From contig JAAVYD010000119.1 in the NCBI GenBank assembly GCA_022790955.1, positions 1-64,000 of the forward strand: 64,000 nucleotides of DNA. The letters run 5' to 3'. The position numbers and the translations under genes were made by a program. Origin of the DNA: Bacillota bacterium (GTDB lineage Bacteria > Bacillota > Clostridia > Peptostreptococcales > Anaerovoracaceae). Shown piece after piece: positions 21,442 through 40,625 of this stretch; within the stretch, counting starts at the first letter, position 1, and the number at the start of each line of letters is the position of its first letter. A model generated the notes under the pieces. The model did no database searches and was not told the origin of the DNA. It was given only the letters and a program-made list of their open reading frames with translations.

Positions 21442-22575
21442 ATGGTATATACAAAAGCTCAATTAGTAAGAGTTGCGAAGAGAAAAAATAATGAGAAAAG
21501 AAAGTACCTTGTTTTAAATACTATGCAGGGTAAGCATATGCCTGCCGAACCAGGTAAAATGATACGAATGTGCAAAGATTTGGCTGAAAAAATACGGAAA
21601 CTTTACAGTACGGAAACCCTGCTTTTGATTGGATTCGCCGAAACCGCCACTGCGGTAGGATCCGTTATAGCGGCTGAATTAAATTGCCTGTACATGCAGA
21701 CTACAAGGGAGAATATTCCTGATGTTGAGTATTTTCATTTTACGGAATCTCATAGTCACGCTGTCGAGCAAAAGCTGATAAAAACTGATTTTGATCTGAT
21801 ATCGGATCAGATACGCAGAATAATTTTTATAGACGACGAAGTGACTACGGGAAATACAATACAGAAATTAATTAATGAAATAAATAAGTCTTATCCTGAC
21901 AGATTTAAATTTGCAGTAGCTTCCGTTTTAAACGGCATGGAAAAAGAGGCGGAAGACAGATTTAAAAAAGATGGAATAGATATTAATTATCTTGTGAAAA
22001 CGAATCATTCGGAATATACGGCTGTGGCTGAAAAATATAAAGATGATGGAATTTGCCTTGAGCCTGATTTTAGTATACCGCGCGTGTATATTAATAGGAA
22101 AGATTTTTTTGCAGGCTTTAATCCAAGGAAGATTCACAGCGGCGGGGATTACGAGAAATCCTGCGAGAATTTATGGCAGCATGTAAAAGAAAATGTGGAT
22201 TTTAAAGCCGGAGAAAATATTCTCGTTATAGGCACGGAAGAGTTTATGTATCCGGCGGTTTATATTGGCGGCAGGATCGAAGGCTGCAGGGTTATTACCC
22301 ATTCGACTACGAGAAGTCCGATTTCGGTCAGCATTGCCGAGGATTATCCGCTGCAGAGCAGATGCGAGCTGGTAAGTTTTTATGAGGATTACAGGACTAC
22401 GTTTATTTATAATTTGGATAAATACGATAAAGTCCTGATAATTACAGACGCATGGAATTATATGAAGAAAGGCGAGTGCAGTCTGGTAAACGCGCTGTAC
22501 GCAAACGGAAACCGAGATATAACATTAATACGATGGTTTTCAAATAAGGATTATGAAGGTGAAAGTGAAAAATAA
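21442..22575 (+). CDS. Ter-cluster phosphoribosyltransferase with TRSP domain
   Basis: PRTase motif IIFIDDEVTTGNT; TRSP signature THSTTRSPI. Confidence 0.85.
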   Translation: MVYTKAQLVRVAKRKNNEKRKYLVLNTMQGKHMPAEPGKMIRMCKDLAEKIRKLYSTETLLLIGFAETATAVGSVIAAELNCLYMQTTRENIPDVEYFHFTESHSHAVEQKLIKTDFDLISDQIRRIIFIDDEVTTGNTIQKLINEINKSYPDRFKFAVASVLNGMEKEAEDRFKKDGIDINYLVKTNHSEYTAVAEKYKDDGICLEPDFSIPRVYINRKDFFAGFNPRKIHSGGDYEKSCENLWQHVKENVDFKAGENILVIGTEEFMYPAVYIGGRIEGCRVITHSTTRSPISVSIAEDYPLQSRCELVSFYEDYRTTFIYNLDKYDKVLIITDAWNYMKKGECSLVNALYANGNRDITLIRWFSNKDYEGESEK

Positions 22576-22578
22576 AAG

Positions 22579-23646
22579 ATGAGAAGTTCATATAAAAGCG
22601 ATGATGTAATTATATTGCTGAAGGATATCACAGGTCTTGTAAAGCCGCAGCCGGCAGATGAAAGAGAGCTTCTGATTCAGTCGGGTATGCATTATTCCGA
22701 AATGCTTCCAATAGAATATGTACCAGGCGACGAATATATGGAGGCGTATTATGATGCTGTCAGGCTTTACGCGAAGCCGGTTGCCAGAGCGATCGGCAGA
22801 GTGTCGGATAAAATCATAGAATTAAAGGGCAGGGAAGTTGTGCTGGTTTCTCTTGCGAGGGCAGGAACTCCGGTTGGTATACTTATTAAGCGTTTTATTC
22901 GTGCAAAATATAATATTGATGTTCCTCATTATTCTATCTCGATAATACGGGGCAGAGGTATAGATCATAATGCAATGAAACATCTTTTAGAGATATATTC
23001 TCCGCAGCAGCTTATGTTTGCAGACGGCTGGATAGGAAAAGGCGCGATTTTGAATGAATTAAAAAAAGCCATCCGGGATTATGATGGCGTATCAGACGAT
23101 ATAGCTGTTGTGTCTGACCCGGCAAACGTTACGGAGCTTTGCGGCACTCATGAAGATATTTTGATACCAAGCTCATGTTTAAACAGTACGGTTTCAGGTC
23201 TTATAAGCAGGACTTTTCTTAGGAAAGATATTATTGGTGAAAATGATTTTCATGGAGCCGTGTTTTACGGAGAACTGGCAGACAGCGATCTGTCGTATGA
23301 ATTTATAAATTCCATAGAAAAAGAGTTTGATATTGATGATAACAAGTCGAACTGTGAATTTGCGGATTCTTGTCCTGCAGAGGGTTCCGGCGCGGAAGAA
23401 GTAAAAGGTATAGCCGAAAGGTTCGGTGTTTCTGACATTAATCTTATAAAACCCGGAATCGGCGAAGCTACAAGGGTTCTTCTTCGGAGGGTGCCGTGGA
23501 AAATATTAATAGACAGTCGTTATATGAATGATTCGTCGACTGTGCATATAAGGAAGCTGGCGAAGGAGAAAGGCGTTAATATAGAAGAATATCCCATGAA
23601 GCATTATAAAGCGTGCGGGATAATTAAAAAAATGTCGGATGTGTGA
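22579..23646 (+). CDS. Ter-cluster PRTase/PELOTA-like protein ('cysteine protease StiP' family in annotations)
   Basis: VVLVSLARAGTPVGILIKR, HYSISIIRGRGID, C-terminal GEATRVLLRRVPWKILI; directly follows the TRSP gene. Confidence 0.8.
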   Translation: MRSSYKSDDVIILLKDITGLVKPQPADERELLIQSGMHYSEMLPIEYVPGDEYMEAYYDAVRLYAKPVARAIGRVSDKIIELKGREVVLVSLARAGTPVGILIKRFIRAKYNIDVPHYSISIIRGRGIDHNAMKHLLEIYSPQQLMFADGWIGKGAILNELKKAIRDYDGVSDDIAVVSDPANVTELCGTHEDILIPSSCLNSTVSGLISRTFLRKDIIGENDFHGAVFYGELADSDLSYEFINSIEKEFDIDDNKSNCEFADSCPAEGSGAEEVKGIAERFGVSDINLIKPGIGEATRVLLRRVPWKILIDSRYMNDSSTVHIRKLAKEKGVNIEEYPMKHYKACGIIKKMSDV

Positions 23647-23704
23647 TGTATCGCCATCGAGGATTATATTAATATTAAAACTTGAAATTTTATAAAAATA
23701 AGCA

Positions 23705-23731
23705 AATCGGGGCGTGATGCCCCGATTTTAA
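23705..23731. terminator. Intrinsic terminator between convergent genes
   Basis: AAATCGGGGC GTGAT GCCCCGATTTT. Confidence 0.85.
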
Positions 23732-23860: not shown

Positions 23861-25330
23861 TTAATAATTAATAAATCCCTGGATAAAACTGTTTATGTAT
23901 TCATATCCGACTGCAAGATTTATATTCTGTCCATGATCCATACCCGCTGTGCTTATGCCGATGACTTCTCCATTCATATTAAGCAGCGCGCCGCCGGAAC
24001 TGCCATGAGAGATCGGAGCTGTAAACTGTATCATTTCTACGCCGTCAAGTTTTCTGAATCCGGATATTATGCCGTCAGAAACGGAATTAAATAGTCCTAA
24101 CGGACTTCCGATAGCTACGACTTTCTGCCCGCGGACGGGTTTTTTATCATTTTTATATATAGGTATCGGATTGAGTTGTCTGTCTATTCTTATTAGCGCC
24201 AGATCAAGATGCTGATTGTATTTGATGATTTCATTAGTTTCGTAAATCTGATCGTCTTCTTCTATTGTGACAGAAAGCAGCGTTCCGCGGCAGGCTACAT
24301 GGTGATTTGTTAAGATAAATCCGTTTTTTCCTATCATGATGCCGGAACCGGTTCCGAGGATCTGTCCGGCAGCATTGTGAAGTGTAATGAGTACTACTGA
24401 TGAGGAAAGAAGCGCCAGTTCTTCGTAGCTTTTTTCCCGTATCTGGCTGCCTGAACCTTCGGCAGTTATGTCGTTTTTGCCTGATTTTGCAGTCCTTTGA
24501 TTGGGGATCTTTATTCTTGGAAGATCCGGAATTGCCGCGGTGTTAATACCGTTTGCGGCTGGGAGCACTGCAGATGAGTTCGAGTTTACAGCCGCTGATA
24601 CAGCAGGCTGGGCTAAAGGCGGTTTTGCGTAATTTCCGCTTTCAAATCTGTATTCAGGAATATTTGCATTTTCATTAAAATCTCCCGCCGGTATTTTCTT
24701 TGACAGATTCAATTTATCTATATCGTTTGATATATCTGATTCAGTCTGGATAAGCAAAACATCAAAGCCTATAAGCGTCAGCATATAAAAGAACAGGTAT
24801 TCGTGGGTTTTTGTTATATTACTCGCTGCGATTTTGGCAGGTTGGCGCGGATTCCAGGCTGAGAGTCGGTTTCCGATGGTTTCGTCGAACCAAAAGAGAA
24901 ATTTTGCAATCAAATTCTTTTCTATCGAAGGATTGGTCGGCTTGTGCTGAGCGTAAAGATTCAGAACTTTTACGCATGCTGCGCTGAGTATAGAGGCGAT
25001 ATCGGGCGTTTTATCTGTGCAGCTTTTTGTATATATTTCTTTTTTTCCTGATTTTGCCCAGGCTTCAAAGCTATCTGTATAAAATTTAGGGTTATTCATA
25101 GAAGGAAGCGAAGAAATCCTGTTGTAAATTCCGTTTTTTTTGTTCATACGCTCGGTAAGCGTTTTATCCATATCGTTTATATCGTTTAAAATGTTGTTAT
25201 TAAAACCTGTTATTCTAAGAAAATAAACGTCTTTACATTCGTTACGATAACCGCCGTTTATATTCATAAAACTGCTGATATTTGATATATCTAATATATT
25301 AAATCTTACATCTTTTATATGATCGAACAT
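23861..25330 (-). CDS. YceG-like N-terminal module fused to a trypsin-like (S1C/HtrA-type) serine protease, no signal peptide
   Basis: Protease triad motifs TNHHV (His), LDLALIRID (Asp), GSSGGALLN (Ser); N-terminal half aligns by eye to the YceG-family protein at 26266-28539. Confidence 0.85.
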   Translation of the reverse strand: MFDHIKDVRFNILDISNISSFMNINGGYRNECKDVYFLRITGFNNNILNDINDMDKTLTERMNKKNGIYNRISSLPSMNNPKFYTDSFEAWAKSGKKEIYTKSCTDKTPDIASILSAACVKVLNLYAQHKPTNPSIEKNLIAKFLFWFDETIGNRLSAWNPRQPAKIAASNITKTHEYLFFYMLTLIGFDVLLIQTESDISNDIDKLNLSKKIPAGDFNENANIPEYRFESGNYAKPPLAQPAVSAAVNSNSSAVLPAANGINTAAIPDLPRIKIPNQRTAKSGKNDITAEGSGSQIREKSYEELALLSSSVVLITLHNAAGQILGTGSGIMIGKNGFILTNHHVACRGTLLSVTIEEDDQIYETNEIIKYNQHLDLALIRIDRQLNPIPIYKNDKKPVRGQKVVAIGSPLGLFNSVSDGIISGFRKLDGVEMIQFTAPISHGSSGGALLNMNGEVIGISTAGMDHGQNINLAVGYEYINSFIQGFINY

Positions 25331-25652
25331 ATTATTGCAACCTCGTTATATTAATATTTTAAATTGCGTAAATTTTATCAGATATGTTAAGTATACCATA
25401 CGCAAACTGAAAATGTTAATACTGTTGCATATTAAATTTATATGGATTCATCTTGTATCTTGCAGCGGATTACATGGATTTGCGCTGAATGCGATAGGTA
25501 TACATCATTGACAAGAATAAATACAACGAGTAAAATAAAAGAGAATATTAATTTTAGATAAAATGAATTTCTTAAATTAATAAAGGCAAATGGTAATAAT
25601 ATTCATAGCAATATTTGTATTATTTATATATAATGTATAGGTTTAACAGAAA

Positions 25653-26246
25653 ATGAATTCATTAACAGAGAAAAAATTTAAAGTTTCGTTTAATTCTCCC
25701 GTGATTTTGGCTTTTACGGTAATATGTCTTGCAGCTCTTATTTTGGATTATGTTACCCGCGGAGCTGCAAACGATATGTTTTTCAGCGTTTATCGGTCGT
25801 CGCTGGCAAGTCCGTTTACATACATAAGGTTTTTCGGACACGTAGCGGGGCACGCAGGCTGGGAGCATTTTATAGGAAATATAATGCTTATATTGATAGT
25901 CGGACCGTTGCTTGAAGAAAAATATGGTTCAGCAAATATTTTATTTGTAATATTATCTACTGCGCTTGTCACAGGACTCGTAAATTTTATATTTTTCCCA
26001 TCGATTCATTTACTTGGCGCCAGCGGCGTCGTATTCGCACTAATACTGCTTTCGTCTTTCACAAGTATAAAAGAAGGAGATATACCGCTGACCTTTATTC
26101 TCGTTGCAGTTATTTATATTGGAGAGCAGATATATAAAGGAATTTTTATTCAGGATAATGTAGCAAATCTTACTCATATTATAGGAGCTGTTGTGGGGGC
26201 TGCGCTTGGTTTTATTATGAATAAAAATAAAATGAACAGATATTAA
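25653..26246 (+). CDS. Rhomboid-family intramembrane serine protease
   Basis: GASG (catalytic Ser) and TM His (NLTHIIGAVVGAALGF); six-TM-like hydrophobicity; HAGWEHFIGNI loop. Confidence 0.88.
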   Translation: MNSLTEKKFKVSFNSPVILAFTVICLAALILDYVTRGAANDMFFSVYRSSLASPFTYIRFFGHVAGHAGWEHFIGNIMLILIVGPLLEEKYGSANILFVILSTALVTGLVNFIFFPSIHLLGASGVVFALILLSSFTSIKEGDIPLTFILVAVIYIGEQIYKGIFIQDNVANLTHIIGAVVGAALGFIMNKNKMNRY

Positions 26247-26265: not shown

Positions 26266-28539
26266 ATGTTTGAGCGTGTCGCACTGCAGGATTTGGACGA
26301 TTTTTTTGTTGAAATCAGCAGAAGAAGAAGCAAAGGCGTATATTTTTACAGAATTAACGGATACAGCGAATATATAGATGAATTTATCCGTAAATATTAT
26401 GAAGCGGCAAGAAAGTCAGGCGTTATAATAGAAGGTAGGATTGCAAATCCTACAGAAAGCAATCTTTCATATTTTCAGGAAATTATGGGTATGAATTTCA
26501 AGATGGACATAGGATTCATAACCGTAAATCTTAAAAAATGGCTGCCTCGTATGACGGATTATCAGCGTTCAAGCGTTGCATCGGCTATGTACGGCGTGTT
26601 TGAAGGATTGCTTGCTTCAGGCAAGAATGAGAATATGATAAAAAACGCTTATGTCAAGTTTATGTGTTGGCTTTATTACAAGTTTGAACGCATAGTCAGC
26701 AGGCTTGGCGATAATGTGGCTCCCAAGATTTTATATGAAGGCGATATAAGCAGGTACGAGCTTCTTATGCTGTCTGTTTTATCAAGGTCGGGCTGTGATA
26801 TAGTGATATTACAGTATAAAGGCGATGAGAATTATTTAAAATCGGATCCAACGTCTGAGTTGTCAGATATTCTTAATATTAAAGGTCTTTCTGCTTTTCC
26901 GCAGAGCTTTAATTTAAAGACGCTGCGTGAGGAGATGGTAAGAAAGACTAAAGTAGACCGTATGTATGGTGAGAAGCCTGATAAGATAAATTGTACAAAT
27001 GCCTGGCTCGGCGGAAATATATTTTTTGATATAAAAAAAGCAGTAAAAGATAGAGGCTCGGATCAGAGATTTTTTTATAATTGCTTTTGCAGAGTGAACG
27101 GCGCGGAAGATAAAAATACATATATTAACGATCTGTACCAGCTTCAGCTTGAACTGAAAAACGCAGGGCGTCATATCGCAATATCAGAAGACAGCATAGG
27201 GATTCCTTTGCCCGATGAGATTGCAAAAATAAGCAGAGGTTCTTATGCGAATGCAGAACAACTGATTCAAGGGCTTTCTGCGAATATAGATTACAGCGGA
27301 GATCAGGAATTAAAAAGGCTGATGAAGAAAGCGTTTATAGATATAATGTTTGAGGAAGCCGAAAATGAAAACATTAATATTAATAAACTTATGAATAAAG
27401 CGGTATATATTATTTGCTGGCTCAGGCGTTATCAGAAGCAGCTTTTTATAAACTGGAAGTTTCCTGATGTTGGAGTTTTTATTTATCTGGGAGGCTGCAA
27501 AACGGATTATGAAGCGTTGTTTTTGCGAATGTTGTCCAGGCTGCCTGTGGATGTTCTGATTCTGGTTCCAAATCTCAACGTAAAATGCTGTTTAGAAGAT
27601 AAATTTTTATATGAAATAAATTATCAAGAAACGATAAATATTTCTAAATTTCCTCATGAAAGCGGAGATGTGCGCATAGGAACCGCCGCATATCATGCAG
27701 AGCGTGATCTTGATACATTGCTTTATCAGGATACGGGAATATACCGCAATCAGCAGTTTAGCAGGGCGAATACAGTAACGCTTCAGACTATGTATGAAGA
27801 AATAGCCATTTTATGGAAGGAAGAGGTAAAATACAGACCAAGTTTTAGTACAGTTGACGATATAGTAAATATACCCGTTATCTTTTCAAAAGTTTCCGGA
27901 GTTAAAGATGGCAATGTTTCCGCGTATTGGAGCAGCGTGAAGGAACTCATAACGGAGGATACTGTTTTAATCGATAAGGCTCCGTATATTACCTCGGTAA
28001 ATCCGAATCCTGTAAAAGCGTTTGCCGTAGAGTTTTTTAAGAACGGCAGAGTGCAGAAAAATAAGATAAAGGCTAATAAGAATTACCGTTACGGGCATTT
28101 GAGGGAAGAAACTCAGGAGTATCTGCTGGACAAGCTGCAGTTATTTATAGATCGTAAAGTTATAAAAGGTACTTTTGTGAACGGTACGGAATATACGATC
28201 ATTTCTACCGCGCTTAATATAAATAATGAAATATTAAGACTGATACAGAAATTTGATTTTACAAAGAAAAATCCTAAGATTATTTATATAAATACTTCAG
28301 AGAAAACAATCTCTCTTGAAGATTCCATACTTATGGGATATCTGAATACAGTCGGTTTCGATGTTGTTTTCTTTGTTCCAACCGGATATCAGACGGTAGA
28401 AAAATATTTTAACGATAAAATTATTGAGGAATTTCAGATCGGCGAGTATGTTTACGATATGAATGTTCCGGATCTGAATAAATTTTCGTCAAGTTCGGGA
28501 AAAGGCTTGATAAACAGAATATTTAAGAGAGGTATGTAG
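26266..28539 (+). CDS. YceG-family Ter-cluster protein
   Basis: Length, internal repeats and position upstream of telA/terD match the YceG family; internal repeats W..KIL(Y/F)...YE.L(M/F)L.(V/M)LSR...D(V/I)(V/L)IL. Confidence 0.75.
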   Translation: MFERVALQDLDDFFVEISRRRSKGVYFYRINGYSEYIDEFIRKYYEAARKSGVIIEGRIANPTESNLSYFQEIMGMNFKMDIGFITVNLKKWLPRMTDYQRSSVASAMYGVFEGLLASGKNENMIKNAYVKFMCWLYYKFERIVSRLGDNVAPKILYEGDISRYELLMLSVLSRSGCDIVILQYKGDENYLKSDPTSELSDILNIKGLSAFPQSFNLKTLREEMVRKTKVDRMYGEKPDKINCTNAWLGGNIFFDIKKAVKDRGSDQRFFYNCFCRVNGAEDKNTYINDLYQLQLELKNAGRHIAISEDSIGIPLPDEIAKISRGSYANAEQLIQGLSANIDYSGDQELKRLMKKAFIDIMFEEAENENININKLMNKAVYIICWLRRYQKQLFINWKFPDVGVFIYLGGCKTDYEALFLRMLSRLPVDVLILVPNLNVKCCLEDKFLYEINYQETINISKFPHESGDVRIGTAAYHAERDLDTLLYQDTGIYRNQQFSRANTVTLQTMYEEIAILWKEEVKYRPSFSTVDDIVNIPVIFSKVSGVKDGNVSAYWSSVKELITEDTVLIDKAPYITSVNPNPVKAFAVEFFKNGRVQKNKIKANKNYRYGHLREETQEYLLDKLQLFIDRKVIKGTFVNGTEYTIISTALNINNEILRLIQKFDFTKKNPKIIYINTSEKTISLEDSILMGYLNTVGFDVVFFVPTGYQTVEKYFNDKIIEEFQIGEYVYDMNVPDLNKFSSSSGKGLINRIFKRGM

Positions 28540-28541
28540 AT

Positions 28542-29690
28542 ATGGCAATAGATTTTTCAAAGGGTGCGTCGGGTCAGGCTGATGTCGCTGAACCTGAAGT
28601 TAAGAATGAAATAGAGATTGTAGAACAGTATGACATAGTTGCGGACAGGCAGCAGATGAACGCGCAGCTTACAAATTCCGCTGAGGTAGATGCGCTTGTC
28701 AGCAATATCGAGGTGTTTAATCTGGAATCTATAGTATCCTTTGGAGCCGATGCTGCCGAGGATATTTCAAGGGCGTCGGATGTGGTGCTTAACAGCATGA
28801 ATATGGCTCAGATCGACGAATCAAGCGAGATGCTGAAAACATTATCCAAGATAATGGATAAGTTTGATATAGAAGAAATAAAGGACAATCCGGGATTATT
28901 CGGAAAAATTTTTGGAAATCTGCGAAAACAACTCGATAAAATTCTTGCTAAATATCATACTATGGGCGACGAAGTAGATAAAATTTACGTCGAGTTAAAA
29001 AAATATGAGTCTGAAATTAAAGATTCAAACAGGAAGTTGAATCAGTTATTCGACGCCAATGTAGGTTATTATCATGAACTTGTAAAATATATTTTAGCTG
29101 GCGAGCAGGCGTGCAAAGAGATAGAAAACTATCTTATTCAGCGCAGAACAGATATGGAAACGTCGGGCGATAATTCTATACAGTTTGAAATAACTACTCT
29201 GGAGCAGGCGCTTATGATGATGGAGCAGCGGACTCAGGATCTGAAAATTGCTGAAAACGTAGCTATGCAGTCCATACCGATGATAAAGACCATGCAGTTC
29301 AGCAATATGAATTTAGTAAGAAAAATCAATTCAGCGTTTATAATTACGCTTCCTGTATTTAAGCAGGCGCTGGCTCAGGCTATAATGCTGAAACGTCAGC
29401 GGATTCAGGCGGAGTCTATGGCGGCGCTTGATGAAAAGACAAACGAAATGCTTATTAAGAACGCCCGCAATACTGTGGAGCAGTCTAAGATGACGGCAAG
29501 ACTGGCTTCGGGCAGTTCTATTAAGGTAGAAACTCTTGAAAATACCTGGCGTACTATCGTCAACGGTATCGAGGAAACCAGGCAGATTCAGGAGAATGCG
29601 AGAAGAAAGCGTATAGAAGATCAGGGCAAACTTGAAAATATTAAAGCCGAATTTAATAAAATGTATCATGTACCTAATAAAACAAATTAA
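28542..29690 (+). CDS. Toxic anion resistance protein, TelA/KlaA family
   Basis: TelA-like helical sequence (TTLEQALMMMEQRTQDLKIAENVAMQSIPMIKTMQ...QKALAQAI-type region). Confidence 0.92.
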   Translation: MAIDFSKGASGQADVAEPEVKNEIEIVEQYDIVADRQQMNAQLTNSAEVDALVSNIEVFNLESIVSFGADAAEDISRASDVVLNSMNMAQIDESSEMLKTLSKIMDKFDIEEIKDNPGLFGKIFGNLRKQLDKILAKYHTMGDEVDKIYVELKKYESEIKDSNRKLNQLFDANVGYYHELVKYILAGEQACKEIENYLIQRRTDMETSGDNSIQFEITTLEQALMMMEQRTQDLKIAENVAMQSIPMIKTMQFSNMNLVRKINSAFIITLPVFKQALAQAIMLKRQRIQAESMAALDEKTNEMLIKNARNTVEQSKMTARLASGSSIKVETLENTWRTIVNGIEETRQIQENARRKRIEDQGKLENIKAEFNKMYHVPNKTN

Positions 29691-29708: not shown

Positions 29709-30290
29709 ATGCCTATTAATTTATCAAAAGGTCAGAAAGTAGATCTTACAAAGGGAAATCCGGGTTTGCAGAAAATTTTGGTCGGTTTAGGCTGGGATGT
29801 TAATGCTTTCGATTCCGGTGCTGATTTCGATTTAGATGCCGCGGCTTTTCTTGTCGGAGAAAACGGCAAATGCCCGACTGAACAGGAATTCGTATTCTAC
29901 GGAAATCTGGCTCATGCGAGTGGATCAGTAAAGCATCTGGGCGACAATCTTACAGGTGAAGGCGAAGGCGACGACGAGCAGATCGAAATAGATCTGTCCA
30001 AGATCCCGGAAAACATCAGTAAAGTAGCGTTTACGGTTACCATTTATGATTCCGATACAAGAAATCAGAATTTTGGACAGGTTTCAAATGCATTTATACG
30101 CATTGTAGACGAGTCGAATAATACTGAGCTTATCAGATATGACTTAGGCGAGGACTTCTCCATAGAAACGGCTGTTGTTGTAGGAGAATTATACAGACAT
30201 AATGGAGAATGGAAATTTAACGCTATCGGTAGCGGATTCCAGGGCGGACTTGCTGCACTGTGCGGTCATTACGGAATCGAAGTTGCGTAA
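29709..30290 (+). CDS. terD: TerD-family stress protein
   Basis: [27 protein letters not shown]...[10 protein letters not shown]...[10 protein letters not shown]...[16 protein letters not shown]. Confidence 0.95.
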
Positions 30291-30528
30291 ATTGTACAGG
30301 AGGTTTTATTTAAGAGGCGCGTTGTTTAAGCGAAGATATATATGAGAATATTTTACGCTGTTAAATTTGCAGGTCAAATATAATGCTGATAATAGCGCGT
30401 GTGATCGGGCAGTTATTTAAAAGTATATAAATTTATGATTAGATGAGCGTTCTTCCGAATAGGTTTTAAAAAGCTGCGGCATACCACGGTTTTTCTGGAT
30501 TGGACGCAAATGACGAGGATTGATTAAG

Positions 30529-31116
30529 ATGTCGATTAGTTTACAAAAAGGTCAGAAGGTTAGTTTATCAAAGGAAAACGCAGGTTTATCAAAAATAATC
30601 GTAGGTCTGGGTTGGGATGAAGTAAAGAGAAAAAGCGGATTTTTTGCGCCTAAGCCTCAGCCGATAGACTGCGATGCTTCTGCTATTATACTGCAGGGCG
30701 GTAAATTAGTGGATACGGGAGATATAGTTTTCTTCGGAAACCTGAGCCACAAAACAGGCACAGTTCAGCACATGGGAGATAATCTTACAGGTGCAGGCGA
30801 CGGAGATGACGAACAGATTATTATTGATCTTGCAAGCGTTCCGGAAAATTACGATAGAATTGTTATAGTTGTAAATATTTATCAGGCAAGGGAAAGAGGT
30901 CAGCATTTCGGTCTTATTCAGAACGCTTTTTGCAGGCTCGTTGATACGAGAAACAACGCGGAGCTTTGCAGATATAATCTAACAGATGATTATTCCGGTC
31001 AGACTGCAATGGTATTTGGTGAAGTTTACAGATATAACGGCGAATGGAAATTTAATGCAATAGGTCAGGGAACTGCCGATAATTCTATCGGAGATCTGGC
31101 AAGGCGTTATCTCTAA
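30529..31116 (+). CDS. Second TerD-family protein (variant first Ca-site loop)
   Basis: ISLQKGQKVSLSKENAGLSKIIVGLGWDE...IDCDASAIIL...GDDEQIIIDL...[16 protein letters not shown]. Confidence 0.93.
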   Translation: MSISLQKGQKVSLSKENAGLSKIIVGLGWDEVKRKSGFFAPKPQPIDCDASAIILQGGKLVDTGDIVFFGNLSHKTGTVQHMGDNLTGAGDGDDEQIIIDLASVPENYDRIVIVVNIYQARERGQHFGLIQNAFCRLVDTRNNAELCRYNLTDDYSGQTAMVFGEVYRYNGEWKFNAIGQGTADNSIGDLARRYL

Positions 31117-31622
31117 TACAATTCAGCTTTTTATAAATATTAAAAGAATATAAATACAGGAGAAGTTAACAAAAATTGCTTGCTTCTCCTTAATTTGTAT
31201 ATTAAAAATCAGACGACGATTTATATCAGCGTCAGTAATATTTGGCAATAAGTTTATTATGCAGTAAATATAATAAGTTTGCTGTTAGAAGAGAGTCAGT
31301 GGGAGCGGCATTTTCATTAGTTATATGTATAAAATTAGATTTTGTTAGAGAGTTTTGATCGCATTTAAGAGAATACAATGTTTTGTATGCATATATTAAG
31401 TCTGCTGAATATAGTATTATAGTCAGTCAATAAATTTAAAATTAACAGCAACTATTTTTAAATCAAAATATAAAAAATAGTTGAGTTTTGGGAAGCTGTG
31501 AAAATAAAGAGAGTATTAGGCAATTTAATAAAGGTATAAGTATCGCTTAAAAAGTAAAAAGAAAAATACAAGTTATTCAGAAATCATATTAATTAAATGA
31601 ATGTTAAATTAAGGAGTTGTGT

Positions 31623-34283
31623 ATGAAATTTAAAGGTCTGACAGACAGTGAGGTCAATGCCTCGCGGGAAAAACACGGATCCAATGTGATCCCGGATTCT
31701 GAGCCGACTACTTTCTGGGATGAATTTAAGGAAACTTTCTCAGATCCTATGATCAAAATTCTTCTTGTTATTGCGGCGCTGATGATAGTAATGTTTTTTT
31801 TCGGTTATGCAGAAATATATGAACCGATAGGAACGATTGTTGCTGTTCTGATTGTTGCTCTTGTTTCGGCAAAGACAGGCGTTACCAGCGATACCAAGTA
31901 CAGGGAGCTGAAAAACAGTACGAAAAAGGATCAGTGTAAGGTTTACCGAAACGGCGAGATAACGGTTCTTGACGTTGACGATATTGTTGTCGGCGACAAG
32001 GTGCTGTTACAGGGAGGCGATAAAATACCCGCAGACGGGATTTTAGTATCGGGTTCTCTTAGCGTAGATAATTCCGTGCTCAACGGTGAATCCGATGAAT
32101 GTAAAAAGAGAGCCGCTTCCGAAGATGCGGATTTTCCTGAGGAAATTACGGGCGATACGTTTGTAGACGCTCATTCCATGTTCAGAGGAGCTGTGGTATT
32201 TGACGGCGAAGGCGTAGTCGATATTAAAAAAGTAGGAATTAGCACGATGATGGGCAGAATGGCAGAAGAAATGCAGGAGGACGAGCCGGATTCGCCTCTC
32301 AAAGTAAAGCTGTCCAAATTAGCAAACCAGATTTCAATTTTCGGATATATCGGCGCGAGCATTATCGCTATTTTATATTTCGCGTATTTCATTATTTCTG
32401 CAGGAGGTCCCGGAGTTTATTTTGATCAGGGAGCTCAGTTTATTATTACAGACATTGTAAGAGCTGTTTCGCTGGCGGTTGTAATTATAGTATGCGCAGT
32501 TCCGGAAGGTCTGCCGCTTATGATTTCGCTGGTTTTGATGCAGAATACGAGCAAGATGCTCGCGCACAACGTGTTGGTAAGAAAAGCGGAAGGCGTGGAA
32601 ACCGCAGGTTCGCTGAATATTTTATTCAGCGATAAAACCGGAACAATTACTAAAGGTATGCTTGAAGTTGCAGACTTTTTTATAGGCGACGGGCGTTCAT
32701 TGGCGATTTCGGAACTTGGAAATTACGGCAAATTAAAAGAACTTGTCGACTTGTCGATTGCTAAGAATACTCAGTCTATGTTCGATCACGATCATAATAT
32801 TATCGGCGGAAATGCTACGGATCAGGCTTTAATGAAATTTATAGGAGAGGAAGCGTTCAATACATTGGCGGATAATGCCGATTATAAGGTGGAGAGCTTC
32901 CAGAGTTTTAATTCAAAAAATAAGTTTAGCCAGGCGAGGATTGATTCTGTCGGTAAGACTTTTTATAAAGGAGCTCCGGAAAAACTGCTTGCTAATGCAA
33001 CTAAATATCTCGACGAAAACGGAAACATAAAAGATCTGGATATGATGGTGCTCAACAGGAAGATAGACGAGTTAGCGTCTAAGGCGATGCGTATTCTTGC
33101 ATTCGGATATTCAGAGAAAAAGCTCATCGAGAATGAAATAAACGAAGATATCGTTATTATCGGTCTTGCGGGAATCAGAGATGACGTAAGATCGGAAGCG
33201 AGAGATGCGATACGCGAGGTACAAAACGCAGGTATTCAGGTCGTAATGATAACAGGCGACAGGATGGAAACAGCCATTGCGATAGCAAAGGATGCGGGAT
33301 TGCTGCGCGACGAGTCAGACAGAGCATTATCATCATCTCAGCTTAATGAAATGTCGGACGAAGAAATAAAAGCTGTGCTTCCGAATATCAGGGTTATAGC
33401 GAGAGCGCTGCCTACTGATAAGTCCAGGATGGTAAGGTTGTGCCAGGAGATGAATCTTGTAGTCGGAATGACTGGCGACGGTGTAAACGATTCTCCGGCT
33501 TTAAAGCGCGCAGATGTAGGTTTTGCGATGGGAAGCGGTACGGAAGCTGCCAAAGAAGCAGGAGAGATAGTTATTCTTGATGATAATTTTGCTTCTATTA
33601 AGGATGCTATACTTTACGGAAGAACTATTTATATTAATATACTTAAATTCTGTAAATTCCAGCTCGCGATTAACGTTACCGCTGTAATAGTCAGCGCTAT
33701 CGCGCCTTTCTTCGGCGTGACGGAGCCGTTAAAGGTAACTCATCTACTGTTCGTAAATCTGGTAATGGACGGATTGGGAGCTATAATGCTCGGAAACGAG
33801 CCTGCCCTCGAACGCTACATGGAGGACAAGCCTCGCAGGCGTGACGAAAGTATTGTCAGCAAGAGTATGATGGCGCAGATATTATGCGCCAGCGCGTGGA
33901 TGACGTGCATCAGCTTTGTTTTCCTGAAACATTCTTTCTTTATAAATCTGTTTGAAAATACTAAGCAGCATCTTACGGGTTATTTTGTGCTGTTTATAGT
34001 TATGGCGCTCTTTAACGGATTTAACGTCAGGGACGAAAGATTCGGAATCTTTAAGGGATTGAACGAGAATACAGGATTTTTAAAAGTGTTCTGCATTATT
34101 ATACTGGTGCAGGCTGTTATCGTGAACGCTGCCCTTGTTCCGCTGGCTCCGTTTGCATGGATTGGAAATATGTTCAGCTGCGAGCCGTTTGGTATAATCG
34201 GCTGGATTGCGGCGGCTCTTCTTGCGGTTACTATAATACCGTTTGATCTTATCCGTAAAGCTGTTATGGGCGGCGAAAAATAG
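31623..34283 (+). CDS. P-type (PMCA/P2-type) Ca2+-transporting ATPase
   Basis: CAVPEGLP, SDKTGTIT phosphorylation motif, GDGVNDSPALKRADVGFAMG. Confidence 0.92.
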   Translation: MKFKGLTDSEVNASREKHGSNVIPDSEPTTFWDEFKETFSDPMIKILLVIAALMIVMFFFGYAEIYEPIGTIVAVLIVALVSAKTGVTSDTKYRELKNSTKKDQCKVYRNGEITVLDVDDIVVGDKVLLQGGDKIPADGILVSGSLSVDNSVLNGESDECKKRAASEDADFPEEITGDTFVDAHSMFRGAVVFDGEGVVDIKKVGISTMMGRMAEEMQEDEPDSPLKVKLSKLANQISIFGYIGASIIAILYFAYFIISAGGPGVYFDQGAQFIITDIVRAVSLAVVIIVCAVPEGLPLMISLVLMQNTSKMLAHNVLVRKAEGVETAGSLNILFSDKTGTITKGMLEVADFFIGDGRSLAISELGNYGKLKELVDLSIAKNTQSMFDHDHNIIGGNATDQALMKFIGEEAFNTLADNADYKVESFQSFNSKNKFSQARIDSVGKTFYKGAPEKLLANATKYLDENGNIKDLDMMVLNRKIDELASKAMRILAFGYSEKKLIENEINEDIVIIGLAGIRDDVRSEARDAIREVQNAGIQVVMITGDRMETAIAIAKDAGLLRDESDRALSSSQLNEMSDEEIKAVLPNIRVIARALPTDKSRMVRLCQEMNLVVGMTGDGVNDSPALKRADVGFAMGSGTEAAKEAGEIVILDDNFASIKDAILYGRTIYINILKFCKFQLAINVTAVIVSAIAPFFGVTEPLKVTHLLFVNLVMDGLGAIMLGNEPALERYMEDKPRRRDESIVSKSMMAQILCASAWMTCISFVFLKHSFFINLFENTKQHLTGYFVLFIVMALFNGFNVRDERFGIFKGLNENTGFLKVFCIIILVQAVIVNAALVPLAPFAWIGNMFSCEPFGIIGWIAAALLAVTIIPFDLIRKAVMGGEK

Positions 34284-34336
34284 AACAAGATGCAGGTTTA
34301 AGCAGCGGTTTACGTCATTAATATTAATATTTTTAG

Positions 34337-34368
34337 GATGCACAGCCGGATTTTGGCTGTGCATCTTT
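34337..34368 (+). terminator. Intrinsic terminator between ATPase and HAD gene
   Basis: GATGCACAGCC GGATTTT GGCTGTGCATC TTT. Confidence 0.75.
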
Positions 34369-34398
34369 GCAATGGAGCGAAAAAGACAGGAGTTTATA

Positions 34399-35145
34399 AT
34401 GATTATTTTTAATGCCGATCTTGATAATACGCTGATATATTCTAAAAAGCATGATATAGGGCGGGATAAGCGGTGCGTTGAGATATATCAGGATGAGGAA
34501 TTTTGTTTTATGACGAGCAAATCGTTGGGGCTGCTTGAACGTATTAATAATAAAATTTTGTTCGTTCCCACTACTACCCGTTCTGTTGAACAGTACAACA
34601 GGATAAGTTTTGGGAATATCGTACCTAAATACGCCCTTGTGTGCAATGGAGGCGTGCTTATTGAGGACGGAAATGAAGACGACGGCTGGTATCGCGAGTC
34701 TTTAAAATTGATCGCAAGCTGCGAGGAGGAACTTGAGAAGGCTCGCAAAATCATGCAGGAGGATATACACAGGAGCTTTGAGGTCAGATTTATAAAAAAA
34801 CTGTTTATTTTTACCAAGAGCGACAAACCGGAAATTATGATAATGAAGTTAAAAGAAAATATTGATTCTGATAAGCTGGATATTTATCGTCACGGCTCAA
34901 AGGTATACGCTGTGCCTAAGGCTTTGAGTAAGGGAAACGCCGTGCTGCGGTTAAAAAACAGGCTCGGCGCGGACAGTCTTATATGTGCCGGCGACAGTTA
35001 TTTTGATGAATCAATGCTGATGGCTGCCGAGCTTTCATTTGCGCCTGAATTCATGAAAATAGAAAAAGACAATCATGTATCTGTTCCGGCAGACAGAATA
35101 TTTTCAGATGAAATTTTAAGCTATATAGTAGAAAATTATTTATAA
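34399..35145 (+). CDS. HAD-superfamily hydrolase, Ter-cluster type
   Basis: IIFNADLDNTLIYS motif I, VPTTTRS motif II, CAGDSYFDESML motif IV. Confidence 0.8.
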   Translation: MIIFNADLDNTLIYSKKHDIGRDKRCVEIYQDEEFCFMTSKSLGLLERINNKILFVPTTTRSVEQYNRISFGNIVPKYALVCNGGVLIEDGNEDDGWYRESLKLIASCEEELEKARKIMQEDIHRSFEVRFIKKLFIFTKSDKPEIMIMKLKENIDSDKLDIYRHGSKVYAVPKALSKGNAVLRLKNRLGADSLICAGDSYFDESMLMAAELSFAPEFMKIEKDNHVSVPADRIFSDEILSYIVENYL

Positions 35146-35390: not shown

Positions 35391-38300
35391 ATAAAAAAGC
35401 TGAATAATCTGGCGAAAAGCCTGTTTTTATTGCTATTAGCAATATTATTATGTACTAATAACATGTATTTAGTGGCTTTGGCTTATGAAAATGAGCATAC
35501 GCATACATTTACCTGTTATGAGAGTTGGGAGCTAAACTGTACCGAACGGGATCACATTCACACTTTATATTGTTACACCGGCAGTGGTGATAGAATATGC
35601 GGTTTAAATGATGGGGAAGTTCATGCTCATAACGATAAAGGTTATGAATGCAGGGAAACTGTTCAGATACTCATTTGTGATTTAGAAGATCATGATCATT
35701 TGGAAGATTGTTATACAGCGATTTACGAATGCAGGCAAAAAAATTTAGAGGGATTGGAAACATCATCATTAGATAGTGAACCATCTGACAAAGACACGAT
35801 ATTATCTGATACAAATATTGAATCGTCTGAGCCAGATACGGAAAGATCAGATTTAAATATTGAATTGATTGAATCAGATCCCACAAAGTCAGATTCAAAT
35901 AACGAACTGACTGAATCAGAATTTGTCGATTTAATATCCAAAGCTGAACAGGGAGGTGAATATACATATAAATTAGAATCATCATTGACCGGTACGATTT
36001 CAAAGTCAATAGAAATAAAAGGCAGCTTTGTATTGGATTTGTATGGGCAAACATTGGACGTGACAGCCGATAAGAGTTCATTAAATCTCTTCAATATAGG
36101 AGATGGAGCTGCGCTTACGATCCAGGATTCCGCAGGAAATGGAATGATAAAATTTTCCGGCGGAGATAATGCGGCGTCGGTTTCTGATGGAGGAACGCTG
36201 AATATTGAAGGCGGAATTATTATAACTGATAACAGAGCAGTATTTATTACTGGTTCTGATGTAAAACCCGGAAACCTGAATATGACAGGAGGAAGCATAA
36301 AGGGTAATAATGCGAATGGAAACGGAGGCGGAATATGCGCAGTTAATACCAGTATAGTAAATATTACCGGCGGTACGATTGAAAATAACAGTTCAACTGC
36401 TAACGGGGGCGGAATTTATGCAAGAAATGATACGGTCAGGCTGACGGTTGGCGGTACTGCAAAGATATCTGATAACCGTGCAGACGGAAACGGGGGCGGA
36501 ATCTATGCAGCTGCTAATGCAGCGGTTAATATAGAAGGAAATGCGCAAATAACCAAGAATACAGATTGTACGGGTGAGATCAAATCTGGAAGCATTTACG
36601 GCGGCTTATTAACGCTTGGAAAAGACTGTATAGTGAGCGGCTATCAAGAACCTGATGCCGACAAGGATGACTTAACGCAGTTTATTAAAGATAAGACATC
36701 GGTTGTATTAGACAGGGATTATACAACAAAAGTAGTCCATACAATAGCCAAAGACACAAATCTTGTAATAGATTTAAACGGTCATACTATTAATGCTGAG
36801 CTAATAGATGATAATGGTAATTTATTCAGTATAGAAGGGTCGCTCACGATAACAGATAGTAAAGAAAATGGAAAAACCGGAGAAATAAAACTGTCCGGCG
36901 GAGATAATGTTATAGCTGTTAAAAATGGCGGCGTGTTAAATCTTGAAGGCGGTACTTTTAATACTGAGAAATGTACCAGAGCAGTTTTCTGCGCAGGCAC
37001 TGTGAATATGTCGGGCGGAACGATCTCCGGAAATACTGTTGCAAACGGAAACGGCGGGGCTGTTTTATTGAGCGGAGGAACCGTTAATATGAGCGGCGGA
37101 ACGATTTCCGGTAATGCTGCTCAAAACGGCGGCGGAATATATGCGGTTAATTCTAAAACAGCGGTCAGTACAGTAAATATCACCGGCGGAACGATTTCCA
37201 GCAATTCCGCAAAAGGATCGGGGCTAAACGGTAACGGAGGCGGTATAGCAATTATAAACAGTACCGTTAGTATTGGAGGAAATGCGGAAATAAAAAATAA
37301 CAGCGCAGAGGGAGTCGGCGGCGGAATTTATATTAATGCGGCTGATATAGAAGTTATTATACAGGGAACTGCGCAGATTGTTAATAATACAGATAGAACT
37401 GAAGAAAGGAAGTCGGGCAGCATTTCATGTGTGCTAACAAATAAATTAATATTTGGATCGGATTGTATCGTGGAGGGTTATCATGAATATGCTCATTCAA
37501 ACGATCAATTAGTAGATTTTATTAAAAAGAATAAAATAGACGGGAAGGTAACTTTAGATAATGACTATGCAACAAATGTAGTTCATGCAATATCAGAAGA
37601 TGAAAGCCTTGAAATAGATCTGGCAGGTCATACTATTAATGCAAAATTAGAAAATTCAAGCGATAATTTATTTAGTATAAACGGTACGCTCACTATAACG
37701 GACAGCGCAGGTAATGGAAAAATAAAGTTGTCCGGCGGAGATAATGTAATTTCAGTTAATTCAGGCGGAACGTTGAATCTTAAAGGAGGTTCTTTTGACA
37801 CCGCCAGCTGTGTCAGAGCGATTTTCTGCGCAGGCACTGTGAATATGTCGGGCGGAACGATCTCCGATAATACTGTTGCAAACGGAAACGGCGGAGCTAT
37901 TTTATCGAGCGGAGGAACCGTTAATATGAGCGGCGGAACGATTTCCGGTAATGCTGCTCAAAACGGCGGCGGAATATATGCGGTTAATTCTAAAACAGCG
38001 GTCAGTACAGTAAATATCACCGGCGGAACGATTATTGGCAATGCCGCAAAAGAACCGGGGTTAAGCAACAATGGCGGCGGTGTAGCAATTATAGATAGTA
38101 TTATTAGTGTTGGCGGGAACGCAGAAATAAAAGAAAATAATGCAGGCGGAAACGGCGGCGGAATAAGCGCTAAAAACAGTAAGGTTGTTATTAGCGGAAC
38201 ATCAGTGATAGAAAAAAATACAGCAGATGGTACGGCTAATGCAGACGACAGTTATGGCAGCGGCGGCGGGATATACGCAGGATTAAACAGCAAGGTAGAA

Positions 38301-40625
38301 ATACAGGGCGGAACGATTCGTGACAATATTGCACAGGGCAACAGCCGTAATATAATCAGCGGAGGCGGCGGAGTTTACGCCAAAGAACTGACAATATCGG
38401 GCGGAACGATTTCCGGCAATGACGCAAAAGGATGGGGGCTAAACGGCAAAGGCGGCGGTGTAAACGCTATAAATTTAGTTATGATTGCCGGTACGATTTC
38501 AGGCAACCATGCCCATTCAGGCGGCGGAATTTATATGAGAGCTCATACAGTTAATGATTATGCTAAGATAGAGGGTCATCTGACATTAACCGGCGGCAGC
38601 ATAGGTTCAGAATCATATGTACAGGGAAAAAGCATGGAAGCCGGAACTGCATCGGGCGGAAATGAAGCGGATTTCTGCGGCGGCGGTATTTTCCTTGATT
38701 ACGGCGTATCAGCGGATATAGGCGATGCAACGGGCAATAGTAATAATAAGCTGTATATTATCGGTAACCTGGCAAAGGATAATAAATTAAGCAAAGAGGA
38801 ACTGAATAACGAAGCAATATCAAAAAATCGTTATCCGCATGGATACGGCGGAGGCGGTATATTTGTTGAACATCCTGAGGGAAACGCCGGATTTGAAGCC
38901 GGCGCTAAATTATTTGTATATAACGCTTTGATAACTGATAATACTGCGCGTTACGGAGGCGGCATAGCCGGCTGCGGCGCAAGCAGCGTTGAGCTGTTCA
39001 GAGTAATGGGCGCAGCTGTATTTGGAAATAAAATAGCTGAAAATATATCAAATAATCTGTACTATCCAAGTTCCTTTGATGTATACTGCGAGGGTTCCGG
39101 CAGTGTAGACAGCATAATGCTGGGAGGATATGCTACAACCTGGCAGGGCGAAGTTGATGTTAATCATAATAATCAACGACCCCATATGGAAAAAATAGCT
39201 TTTAATAGCGGACAACATAATCTAAGCGACTTTTTCCTTCAATCGGATCCAACCGCAGCAGCTATCGAAAGCGTAAGGCAGTTAGCTAATGTATTTATCG
39301 AAAGAAATACCTGTTATTCCGGCGGCGGAGGAATCGGCGGCAACGGATTGATAAGGCTTGGAGCAAATCCTGATGTATGTATAAAGAAAGAGCTTATTTA
39401 CGATCATGCTGATACGGCTCTTAAACAATTATTGGATGAAAAAGAGTTTGAGTTTAAGTTTGTGGACAAAAACAATCCGAGTCTGACATATGATTTAAAA
39501 CTTAAAGGTTCTGGTTTTGTAGAAACAAAGATACCTGCAGGAACCTACATAGTTACGGAAATAAGAGATTCGGCGCATGTTGACGGATATATATTAGATA
39601 CTACGGCAGAGATTGAGGGAAATCCTGTTGATCATCCTCCTGTAAGTCAGGAAATAACGATAACAAATGAACTCATAAATACGGGCGGTATGATAACTAT
39701 AAAATTCACCAATATGTATACAAATCCTGAATCGCCTAAGGGTAATATACGTATTAATAAGAGAGTTACGGGTGAAAATGCAGATTCAGATAAAGAATTC
39801 TCATTTACAATAAGATTAAAGGATGAAACAGGTAAGCCTCTGAAAACATCGTATGATTATACGGGCAGCAGCACAGGAGTTGTATCGGATGGAGATATTA
39901 TTAAACTGAAAAACCATGAGCACATAATTATAGAATTTTTACCGGTCGGTACCGGAGTATCAGTTACGGAAACGGCTGATAATCAGTATACGACCACGGC
40001 TACAGTGGATGGCGCGAATTATGCGCAGGGACAGACAATATTAATCAGTCAGAGTAATACATCGGAAGTTGAGTTTACGAATAATACAAAATCAACGCCT
40101 CAGCATCCGGGCGGTCCATCGGATAATCCGCCAAGCGATCCTCCTGACAATCCATCGGACAAGCCTTCTGAAGATCCTCCGGAAAATCCAGAAGAAGATC
40201 CGAAGGATAATCCGGAGGAAGAACCATCAGAAGAACCAGAGGAAAATCTGCCGGAAAATCCGGATGAAAACTTGCCTGATAATCCACCGGAAAACCCGCC
40301 GGGTTATCTGACAGAACTTCCGGATCCAAATGATCCGAACAGTCCGGATACGGTAACTATCTGGGATGACGGGGTACCTACAACATATATAAAAGTGTGG
40401 GATCCCGATGAAGAAGAATTTGTTTATCTTCCTGAAGACGAGGTGCCTTTAGCAAATATGGAATTTCCAGAAGAGGAGATGACTTTAACAGACGAGATGC
40501 CTGCCACGGAAGATAACAATCTGGCAGCGTTATGGGCGGCGTTGGCAGTTATATCGCTGGCGATTATAATAGGCTTATTATCAGCCTGCAAAAAACACAG
40601 TGATAATATAAAAGAAAATAAATAA
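35391..40625 (+). CDS. Large surface adhesin: signal peptide, Cys/His repeats, right-handed beta-helix (GGTISGN) repeats, Cna_B/pilin-like domains, Pro-rich linker, C-terminal TM anchor
   Basis: AAAGGAGG RBS 7 nt before in-frame ATA at 35391 giving (M)KKLNNLAKSLFLLLLAILLCTNNMYLVALA signal peptide; the ORF track uses TTG 35430; repeats and Pro-rich/TM tail read directly. Confidence 0.85.
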   Translation: MKKLNNLAKSLFLLLLAILLCTNNMYLVALAYENEHTHTFTCYESWELNCTERDHIHTLYCYTGSGDRICGLNDGEVHAHNDKGYECRETVQILICDLEDHDHLEDCYTAIYECRQKNLEGLETSSLDSEPSDKDTILSDTNIESSEPDTERSDLNIELIESDPTKSDSNNELTESEFVDLISKAEQGGEYTYKLESSLTGTISKSIEIKGSFVLDLYGQTLDVTADKSSLNLFNIGDGAALTIQDSAGNGMIKFSGGDNAASVSDGGTLNIEGGIIITDNRAVFITGSDVKPGNLNMTGGSIKGNNANGNGGGICAVNTSIVNITGGTIENNSSTANGGGIYARNDTVRLTVGGTAKISDNRADGNGGGIYAAANAAVNIEGNAQITKNTDCTGEIKSGSIYGGLLTLGKDCIVSGYQEPDADKDDLTQFIKDKTSVVLDRDYTTKVVHTIAKDTNLVIDLNGHTINAELIDDNGNLFSIEGSLTITDSKENGKTGEIKLSGGDNVIAVKNGGVLNLEGGTFNTEKCTRAVFCAGTVNMSGGTISGNTVANGNGGAVLLSGGTVNMSGGTISGNAAQNGGGIYAVNSKTAVSTVNITGGTISSNSAKGSGLNGNGGGIAIINSTVSIGGNAEIKNNSAEGVGGGIYINAADIEVIIQGTAQIVNNTDRTEERKSGSISCVLTNKLIFGSDCIVEGYHEYAHSNDQLVDFIKKNKIDGKVTLDNDYATNVVHAISEDESLEIDLAGHTINAKLENSSDNLFSINGTLTITDSAGNGKIKLSGGDNVISVNSGGTLNLKGGSFDTASCVRAIFCAGTVNMSGGTISDNTVANGNGGAILSSGGTVNMSGGTISGNAAQNGGGIYAVNSKTAVSTVNITGGTIIGNAAKEPGLSNNGGGVAIIDSIISVGGNAEIKENNAGGNGGGISAKNSKVVISGTSVIEKNTADGTANADDSYGSGGGIYAGLNSKVEIQGGTIRDNIAQGNSRNIISGGGGVYAKELTISGGTISGNDAKGWGLNGKGGGVNAINLVMIAGTISGNHAHSGGGIYMRAHTVNDYAKIEGHLTLTGGSIGSESYVQGKSMEAGTASGGNEADFCGGGIFLDYGVSADIGDATGNSNNKLYIIGNLAKDNKLSKEELNNEAISKNRYPHGYGGGGIFVEHPEGNAGFEAGAKLFVYNALITDNTARYGGGIAGCGASSVELFRVMGAAVFGNKIAENISNNLYYPSSFDVYCEGSGSVDSIMLGGYATTWQGEVDVNHNNQRPHMEKIAFNSGQHNLSDFFLQSDPTAAAIESVRQLANVFIERNTCYSGGGGIGGNGLIRLGANPDVCIKKELIYDHADTALKQLLDEKEFEFKFVDKNNPSLTYDLKLKGSGFVETKIPAGTYIVTEIRDSAHVDGYILDTTAEIEGNPVDHPPVSQEITITNELINTGGMITIKFTNMYTNPESPKGNIRINKRVTGENADSDKEFSFTIRLKDETGKPLKTSYDYTGSSTGVVSDGDIIKLKNHEHIIIEFLPVGTGVSVTETADNQYTTTATVDGANYAQGQTILISQSNTSEVEFTNNTKSTPQHPGGPSDNPPSDPPDNPSDKPSEDPPENPEEDPKDNPEEEPSEEPEENLPENPDENLPDNPPENPPGYLTELPDPNDPNSPDTVTIWDDGVPTTYIKVWDPDEEEFVYLPEDEVPLANMEFPEEEMTLTDEMPATEDNNLAALWAALAVISLAIIIGLLSACKKHSDNIKENK
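36985..37196 (+). repeat. Copy 1 of ~212-bp near-identical intragenic direct repeat
   Basis: Only a few mismatches to 37822-38033, period 837 bp. Confidence 0.9.
37822..38033 (+). repeat. Copy 2 of ~212-bp near-identical intragenic direct repeat
   Basis: See copy 1. Confidence 0.9.

Follow-up and report, generated by a model that had tools for sequence, protein, structure and literature searches.

The gene located at positions 23861..25330, on the minus strand of the window (the whole stretch of 64,000 nucleotides that was analysed), encodes the fusion of a YceG-type module with a serine protease domain of the S1C type, and this fusion is conserved in gut Clostridia, most often in the vicinity of the Ter stress-response genes. 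We consider it probable that its product is a cytosolic protease dedicated to Ter and gated or positioned by the YceG-type module. Ter is a widespread and poorly understood stress-resistance cluster, in which the role of YceG and the nature of the final protection have been open questions for decades; the conserved fusion raises the possibility that proteolysis is the way in which Ter operates. A conserved enzyme of recognisable chemistry carried by a YceG module provides a handle on the targets of Ter, and the module, which has a single YceG domain, would be convenient material in a search for the YceG ligand.

The open reading frame on the minus strand coincides exactly with this interval and encodes one protein of 489 residues, the assignment of which rests on the frame itself, on Pfam and on 98 orthologues. 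The protein comprises an N-terminal YceG module (residues 1-222; 24665..25330, minus strand), a disordered linker (residues 223-299; 24434..24664, minus) and, over residues 300-489 and the stop codon (23861..24433, minus), a protease domain of the S1C (HtrA/DegS) type that lacks PDZ. The AlphaFold2 model presents two confident domains separated by a floppy linker, with a mean pLDDT of 84.1 that reaches about 95 in the module and falls below 50 over residues 232-293. Its pTM of 0.62 indicates no fixed interdomain arrangement, and because of this disordered connection the model gives no structural sign of a gating of the protease by the module. Neither a signal peptide nor a transmembrane segment is evident, the maximum 19-residue hydropathy (1.64) being located inside the fold, which begins at about residue 7; the claim of the first-pass annotation that the protein lacks a signal peptide is thus borne out, and we infer from the sequence that the fusion protein is cytosolic. 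In the orthologue alignment, the mean identity to the window protein is 69% for the protease half and 35% for the module, the better conservation of the protease half being that expected for a working enzyme.

The same annotation had recognised a likeness between residues 138-207 of the fusion and residues 127-194 of the neighbouring YceG protein (26266..28539, plus strand), and had noted that the module recurs within the latter. The direct BLASTP comparison of the two proteins is weak to marginal (E=0.003, 23% identity), and the profile-profile comparison with hhalign pairs the same region, residues 31-223 of the fusion with residues 21-212 of YceG, that is with its copy 1 (probability 97.2%, E=3.6e-11), so that the N-terminal half is related to YceG. 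Pfam YceG_bac (PF14266) matches residues 35-206 of the fusion (E=1.3e-9, 38.4 bits for a gathering cut-off of 25) and 64 of the 69 diverse aligned orthologues (E up to 0.001, best 5.8e-27), the module scoring 91-98 bits in family f11 and 73-79 bits in genus g101. Pfam also finds three YceG_bac copies in the YceG protein itself (1.7e-125), in agreement with the recurrence noted. The AlphaFold2 models of the fusion and of YceG (mean pLDDT 84.9 for the latter), obtained independently and compared by secondary-structure order, display the same succession of strands and helices. Furthermore, the fused module groups in the tree with the N-terminal YceG copies (95/83) and not with copies 2 or 3, and it keeps the copy-1 residues R39, N139, K143, K166, E177, D190 and D199, together with W147, which copies 2 and 3 partly lack. 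Judged from these alignments and the tree, the fused module is a genuine YceG domain of the copy-1 type and, since the polar set (all these residues except W147) is kept, it does not look decayed. Searching the PDB sequences with the profile of YceG returned no solved relative of the domain. The YceG model received no firm fold assignment: its matches in the fold search, weak and P-loop-like, are to UvrD and KaiC (best E=1.2e-4, TM about 0.12), and they were not taken as evidence that YceG is an ATPase.

The C-terminal half matches Pfam Trypsin_2 over residues 328-459 (E=6.2e-26). Its catalytic residues are His344, in the motif TNHHV (24299..24301), Asp376 (24203..24205) and Ser445 (23996..23998), all encoded on the minus strand. 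Across the 98 fusion proteins the aspartate, the serine and the glycine of the oxyanion region are present in 98/98 and the histidine in 97/98, the remaining protein having an X at this position; the triad described as intact in the window is therefore conserved in the orthologues as well. The absence of a PDZ domain, also claimed earlier, agrees with the lack of any Pfam match to PDZ and with a chain that ends 3-10 residues past residue 482 in 98/98 proteins. An S1C fold with its His-Asp-Ser triad is thus present by both sequence and structure comparison: the best solved relative on both counts is RsgI9 of Clostridium thermocellum (7SJY), and DegS delta-PDZ and HtrA1 give a TMt of about 0.8 to the protease domain. 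All the NCBIfam Do/HtrA/DegS models score below their cut-off (110.7 bits against 416.2 for degP_htrA_DO), and this result and the lack of a PDZ domain lead us to call the domain S1C-type rather than an HtrA orthologue. From its sequence, the protease looks catalytically competent. Among the PADLOC anti-phage systems no whole-protein match was obtained, the trypsin half alone matching RT-Protease_XI and others, and in the fold search of the fusion against viral structures the trypsin-fold matches were confined to the protease half.

In the window, the fusion gene lies inside a Ter cluster. It is preceded on the plus strand by two genes of the Ter biosynthetic branch identified with Pfam, PRTase_2/TRSP (21442..22575) and StiP with PELOTA (22579..23646), and between stiP and the fusion stands a bidirectional terminator-like hairpin (23704..23728), with a stem of 10-11 pairs followed on either strand by a T-rich tail. 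Beyond the fusion, and all on the plus strand, come a rhomboid intramembrane protease (25653..26246; Pfam 1.7e-20), YceG, TelA (28542..29690; 2.4e-99), two TerD proteins (29709..30290, 2.8e-86; 30520..31116, 1.5e-74), a P-type (Ca2+-like) cation ATPase (31617..34283) and a HAD phosphatase (34243..35145), the last two being Pfam assignments that recur in homologous loci. The fusion gene is thus antisense to yceG, with the rhomboid gene between the two. A promoter-like site for the fusion (25390..25419, minus; TTAACA-18-TATACT with TG before the second hexamer) faces away from one for rhomboid-yceG (25508..25536, plus; TTGACA-17-TAAAAT, 11/12), both being consensus matches only in a window where the total number of promoter-like matches is not above that of shuffles. 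As for the rhomboid protein, its Ser124 is found in 37/37 sequences and its His175 in 36/37 (one gap), and it possibly works at the membrane as a partner of the fusion protease in the cytosol.

The distribution of the fusion follows that of Ter. Among the 299 genomes of the order, 18 contain the fusion in intact form and a further genome contains a fragment of it, TerD being found in 74 and YceG_bac in 61. TerD is present in 18/18 of the fusion genomes as against 74/299 overall (hypergeometric 2e-12) and, counted by genus, in 9/9 genera with the fusion (8e-6), two probabilities that the relatedness of the genomes makes optimistic by overstating the independent evidence. A scan of the GTDB named genomes returned 312 confirmed relatives. 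The best 80 are without exception full-length fusions; nearly all belong to Lachnospiraceae or other gut Clostridia, Lachnospiraceae being the majority, and among gut Lachnospiraceae the gene is common. In 73/80 of these best loci a core Ter gene is at most 10 kb away, which, with the TerD count, supports the link to Ter systems assumed in the first-pass annotation. The usual order is PRTase, StiP, a C-C bond lyase (PF15617) on the opposite strand, the fusion, with or without the rhomboid, then YceG, TelA, TerD, the cation ATPase and HAD; compared with it, the window has the fusion inverted and the lyase missing. The gene following the fusion is the rhomboid in 34 loci and yceG in 32, together 66/78, and the gap between fusion and yceG has a median of 36 bp, with four overlaps. 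TerD was found in 16/16 fusion genomes checked and StiP in 27/30 genomes checked, the misses including a genome (G122) that is 79% complete and whose contig ends at the locus. The class and phylum samples contain 3/392 and 3/399 fusions, figures that are not rates because scoring was limited to the top four candidates of each genome, places for which HtrA paralogues compete; a family search centred on genome G585 gave the fusion in 1/14. A viral-contig scan with the fusion gave no match, nor did tblastn of the N-terminal module against 72,556 plasmid and 50,697 phage records.

The linker varies from 35 to 161 residues among the orthologues and contains a recurrent linear motif of the VRVxLPERxRR type (V/I-x-V/I-x-L/I-P-E/P-R-x-R-R, for example VRVTLPERNRR), in 1-4 copies per protein, which is apparently unreported. 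In the window it is the segment R272-R279 (RIKIPNQR; 24494..24517, minus), which fits the pattern [VIL]x[VIL]Px[RKQH], and it recurs in the linkers of loci L131-L210; its P276 is aligned and conserved in 91% of the orthologue alignment. The strict motif occurs in 41/98 linkers, whereas 500 composition-preserving shuffles give 3.1 and at most 9; the independent events are fewer than 41 owing to the shared history of related linkers. Its density is 7.4 per 1000 residues in the linkers against about 0-0.3 in the neighbouring Ter proteins. AlphaFold2 leaves the motif undocked in cis (pLDDT below 50), and for this reason the model makes binding in trans more likely than the action of an autoinhibitory strand. 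One natural split of the gene was rejected, in genome G008, where two frames (L003:338-1573 and 1510-2097) replace one: a near-match to a Nextera adapter, with 2 mismatches (L003:1381-1399), sits in the linker region of this orthologue, in the part where its frame is interrupted, and the split is likely an assembly artefact.

The mechanism we favour gives each of these parts a task. The YceG module would be the input or docking part, filling the place that the PDZ domain holds in DegS/HtrA; the PDZ-less S1C protease would be the output, and the disordered linker, with its basic, Pro-containing motif, would tether one to the other. The module would either recruit the protease, to a ligand or complex of Ter, or gate it when the ligand appears. 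Candidates for this ligand are a TerD assembly and the nucleotide-like compound that the PRTase/StiP/lyase/HAD branch is predicted to make, and the linker motif would be used for binding in trans. The first-pass annotation had called the module a sensor or adaptor controlling the protease: its identity as a YceG domain stands, and the sensor or adaptor role is plausible in view of the architecture and its conservation. TerD and the biosynthetic branch are the common companions of the fusion, a pattern that favours TerD, or the metabolite predicted for the branch, as the input. Could the Ter system of Clostridia then have a proteolytic output? We offer this wider scheme tentatively: the S1C protease would be switched on through the YceG-type module upon sensing of the metabolite or of the state of TerD, the linker motif would lead the protease to its targets or keep it in place, and the rhomboid would cut in the membrane.

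Other explanations deserve to be weighed against a Ter-dedicated protease controlled by its module. The earlier proposal that the protease may cleave Ter components would have it cut YceG, TelA or TerD, thereby resetting or firing the system, its module recognising YceG as a copy of the first YceG domain; the copy-1 character of the module and the close operonic arrangement that most loci show with yceG-telA-terD speak for it. Family f11 goes against it. There the fusion gene is located outside the Ter locus, which loosens its functional link to Ter, and the compact terD loci (L221-L226) consist of three TerD genes, the lyase, a fused StiP-PRTase and HAD. In 5/6 f11 fusion genomes the fusion is the sole YceG-domain protein, so that YceG cannot be the substrate in these five; no yceG or telA occurs at the terD loci examined in three of the five and in G093, and both YceG and TelA are unlikely as general substrates. 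The proposal that YceG or TelA is cleaved was lowered on this account, and the cleavage of Ter components finds no support and as a whole seems unlikely to us, TerD being a possible substrate.

It is also conceivable, if rather doubtful, that the protease serves general quality control, removing proteins damaged by metals or oxidation, and that the module only directs it to a Ter assembly lying under the membrane. HtrA proteases often degrade misfolded proteins, and the fold is of the HtrA/DegS type; on the other hand, the PDZ domains that usually present the substrates in HtrA are absent, and so strong an association with a single system speaks for a dedicated function. By analogy with RsgI9, its best match in both structure and sequence, the S1C domain might instead serve mainly for binding or self-cleavage, the long exposed linker being a possible site of the latter. 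We hold this to be improbable, given a triad and an oxyanion-region glycine that are intact throughout the 98 proteins, and a role in polysaccharide binding is unlikely because there is no extracytoplasmic signal. Finally, the inversion of the gene relative to most loci could suggest a chance or recent join without functional meaning in the window genome, an idea that is hardly tenable and is refuted by the conservation of the full-length fusion in the 18 genomes of the order and in no fewer than 80 named records.

The protein we propose to be a Ter-dedicated protease shares features with several known systems. With the YceG_bac proteins that Ter operons encode, B. subtilis YceG among them, the module has in common the domain family, the secondary-structure order and the copy-1-type residues, but ordinary YceG proteins repeat the domain two or three times and have no protease, whereas the fusion has one copy and an S1C protease. 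DegS, HtrA1 and DegP share with it the protease fold, the intact triad and the principle of an appended regulatory domain; the fusion differs from them by the absence of signal, transmembrane segment and PDZ domain, by a regulatory domain that is N-terminal and YceG-type, and by its predicted cytosolic location. RsgI9, an anti-sigma factor, is unlike the fusion in being membrane-anchored, extracytoplasmic and linked to NTF2 and anti-sigma domains; its S1C domain is reported to bind polysaccharide and its periplasmic region to cleave itself (PMC12203970). The same design idea is seen in the adaptor-peptidases of NTP-dependent conflict systems, EAD-trypsin and GYF-trypsin, where a trypsin-like peptidase is joined to an adaptor or sensor domain that recurs within the system (PMC7159879), although the adaptor domain is unrelated and the system different. 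Within the Ter-dependent stress response systems (PRTase, StiP, HAD, TelA, TerD, YceG), the fusion gene is found in the cluster and co-occurs with TerD. YceG/TelA genes are tied to peroxide and antimicrobial-peptide tolerance in Bacillus, as cited in PMC4633105, and the synthesis of TerD in C. difficile rises under metronidazole (PMC6262375). No serine protease is named in the Ter accounts PMC7824862, PMC9604106 and PMC4633105, and a YceG-protease fusion is not described in the literature searched, a scope outside which lies the main survey, Anantharaman 2012, which might mention it.

Two minor observations concern neighbouring or related genes. In genome G124 (C55:190980-191543), a TerD domain belongs to an open frame of 477 residues, the usual length being about 193. 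Directly past the Ter cluster of the window, positions 35430-40625 encode a predicted surface protein of 1731 residues with many glycine-rich, parallel-beta-helix-like repeats.
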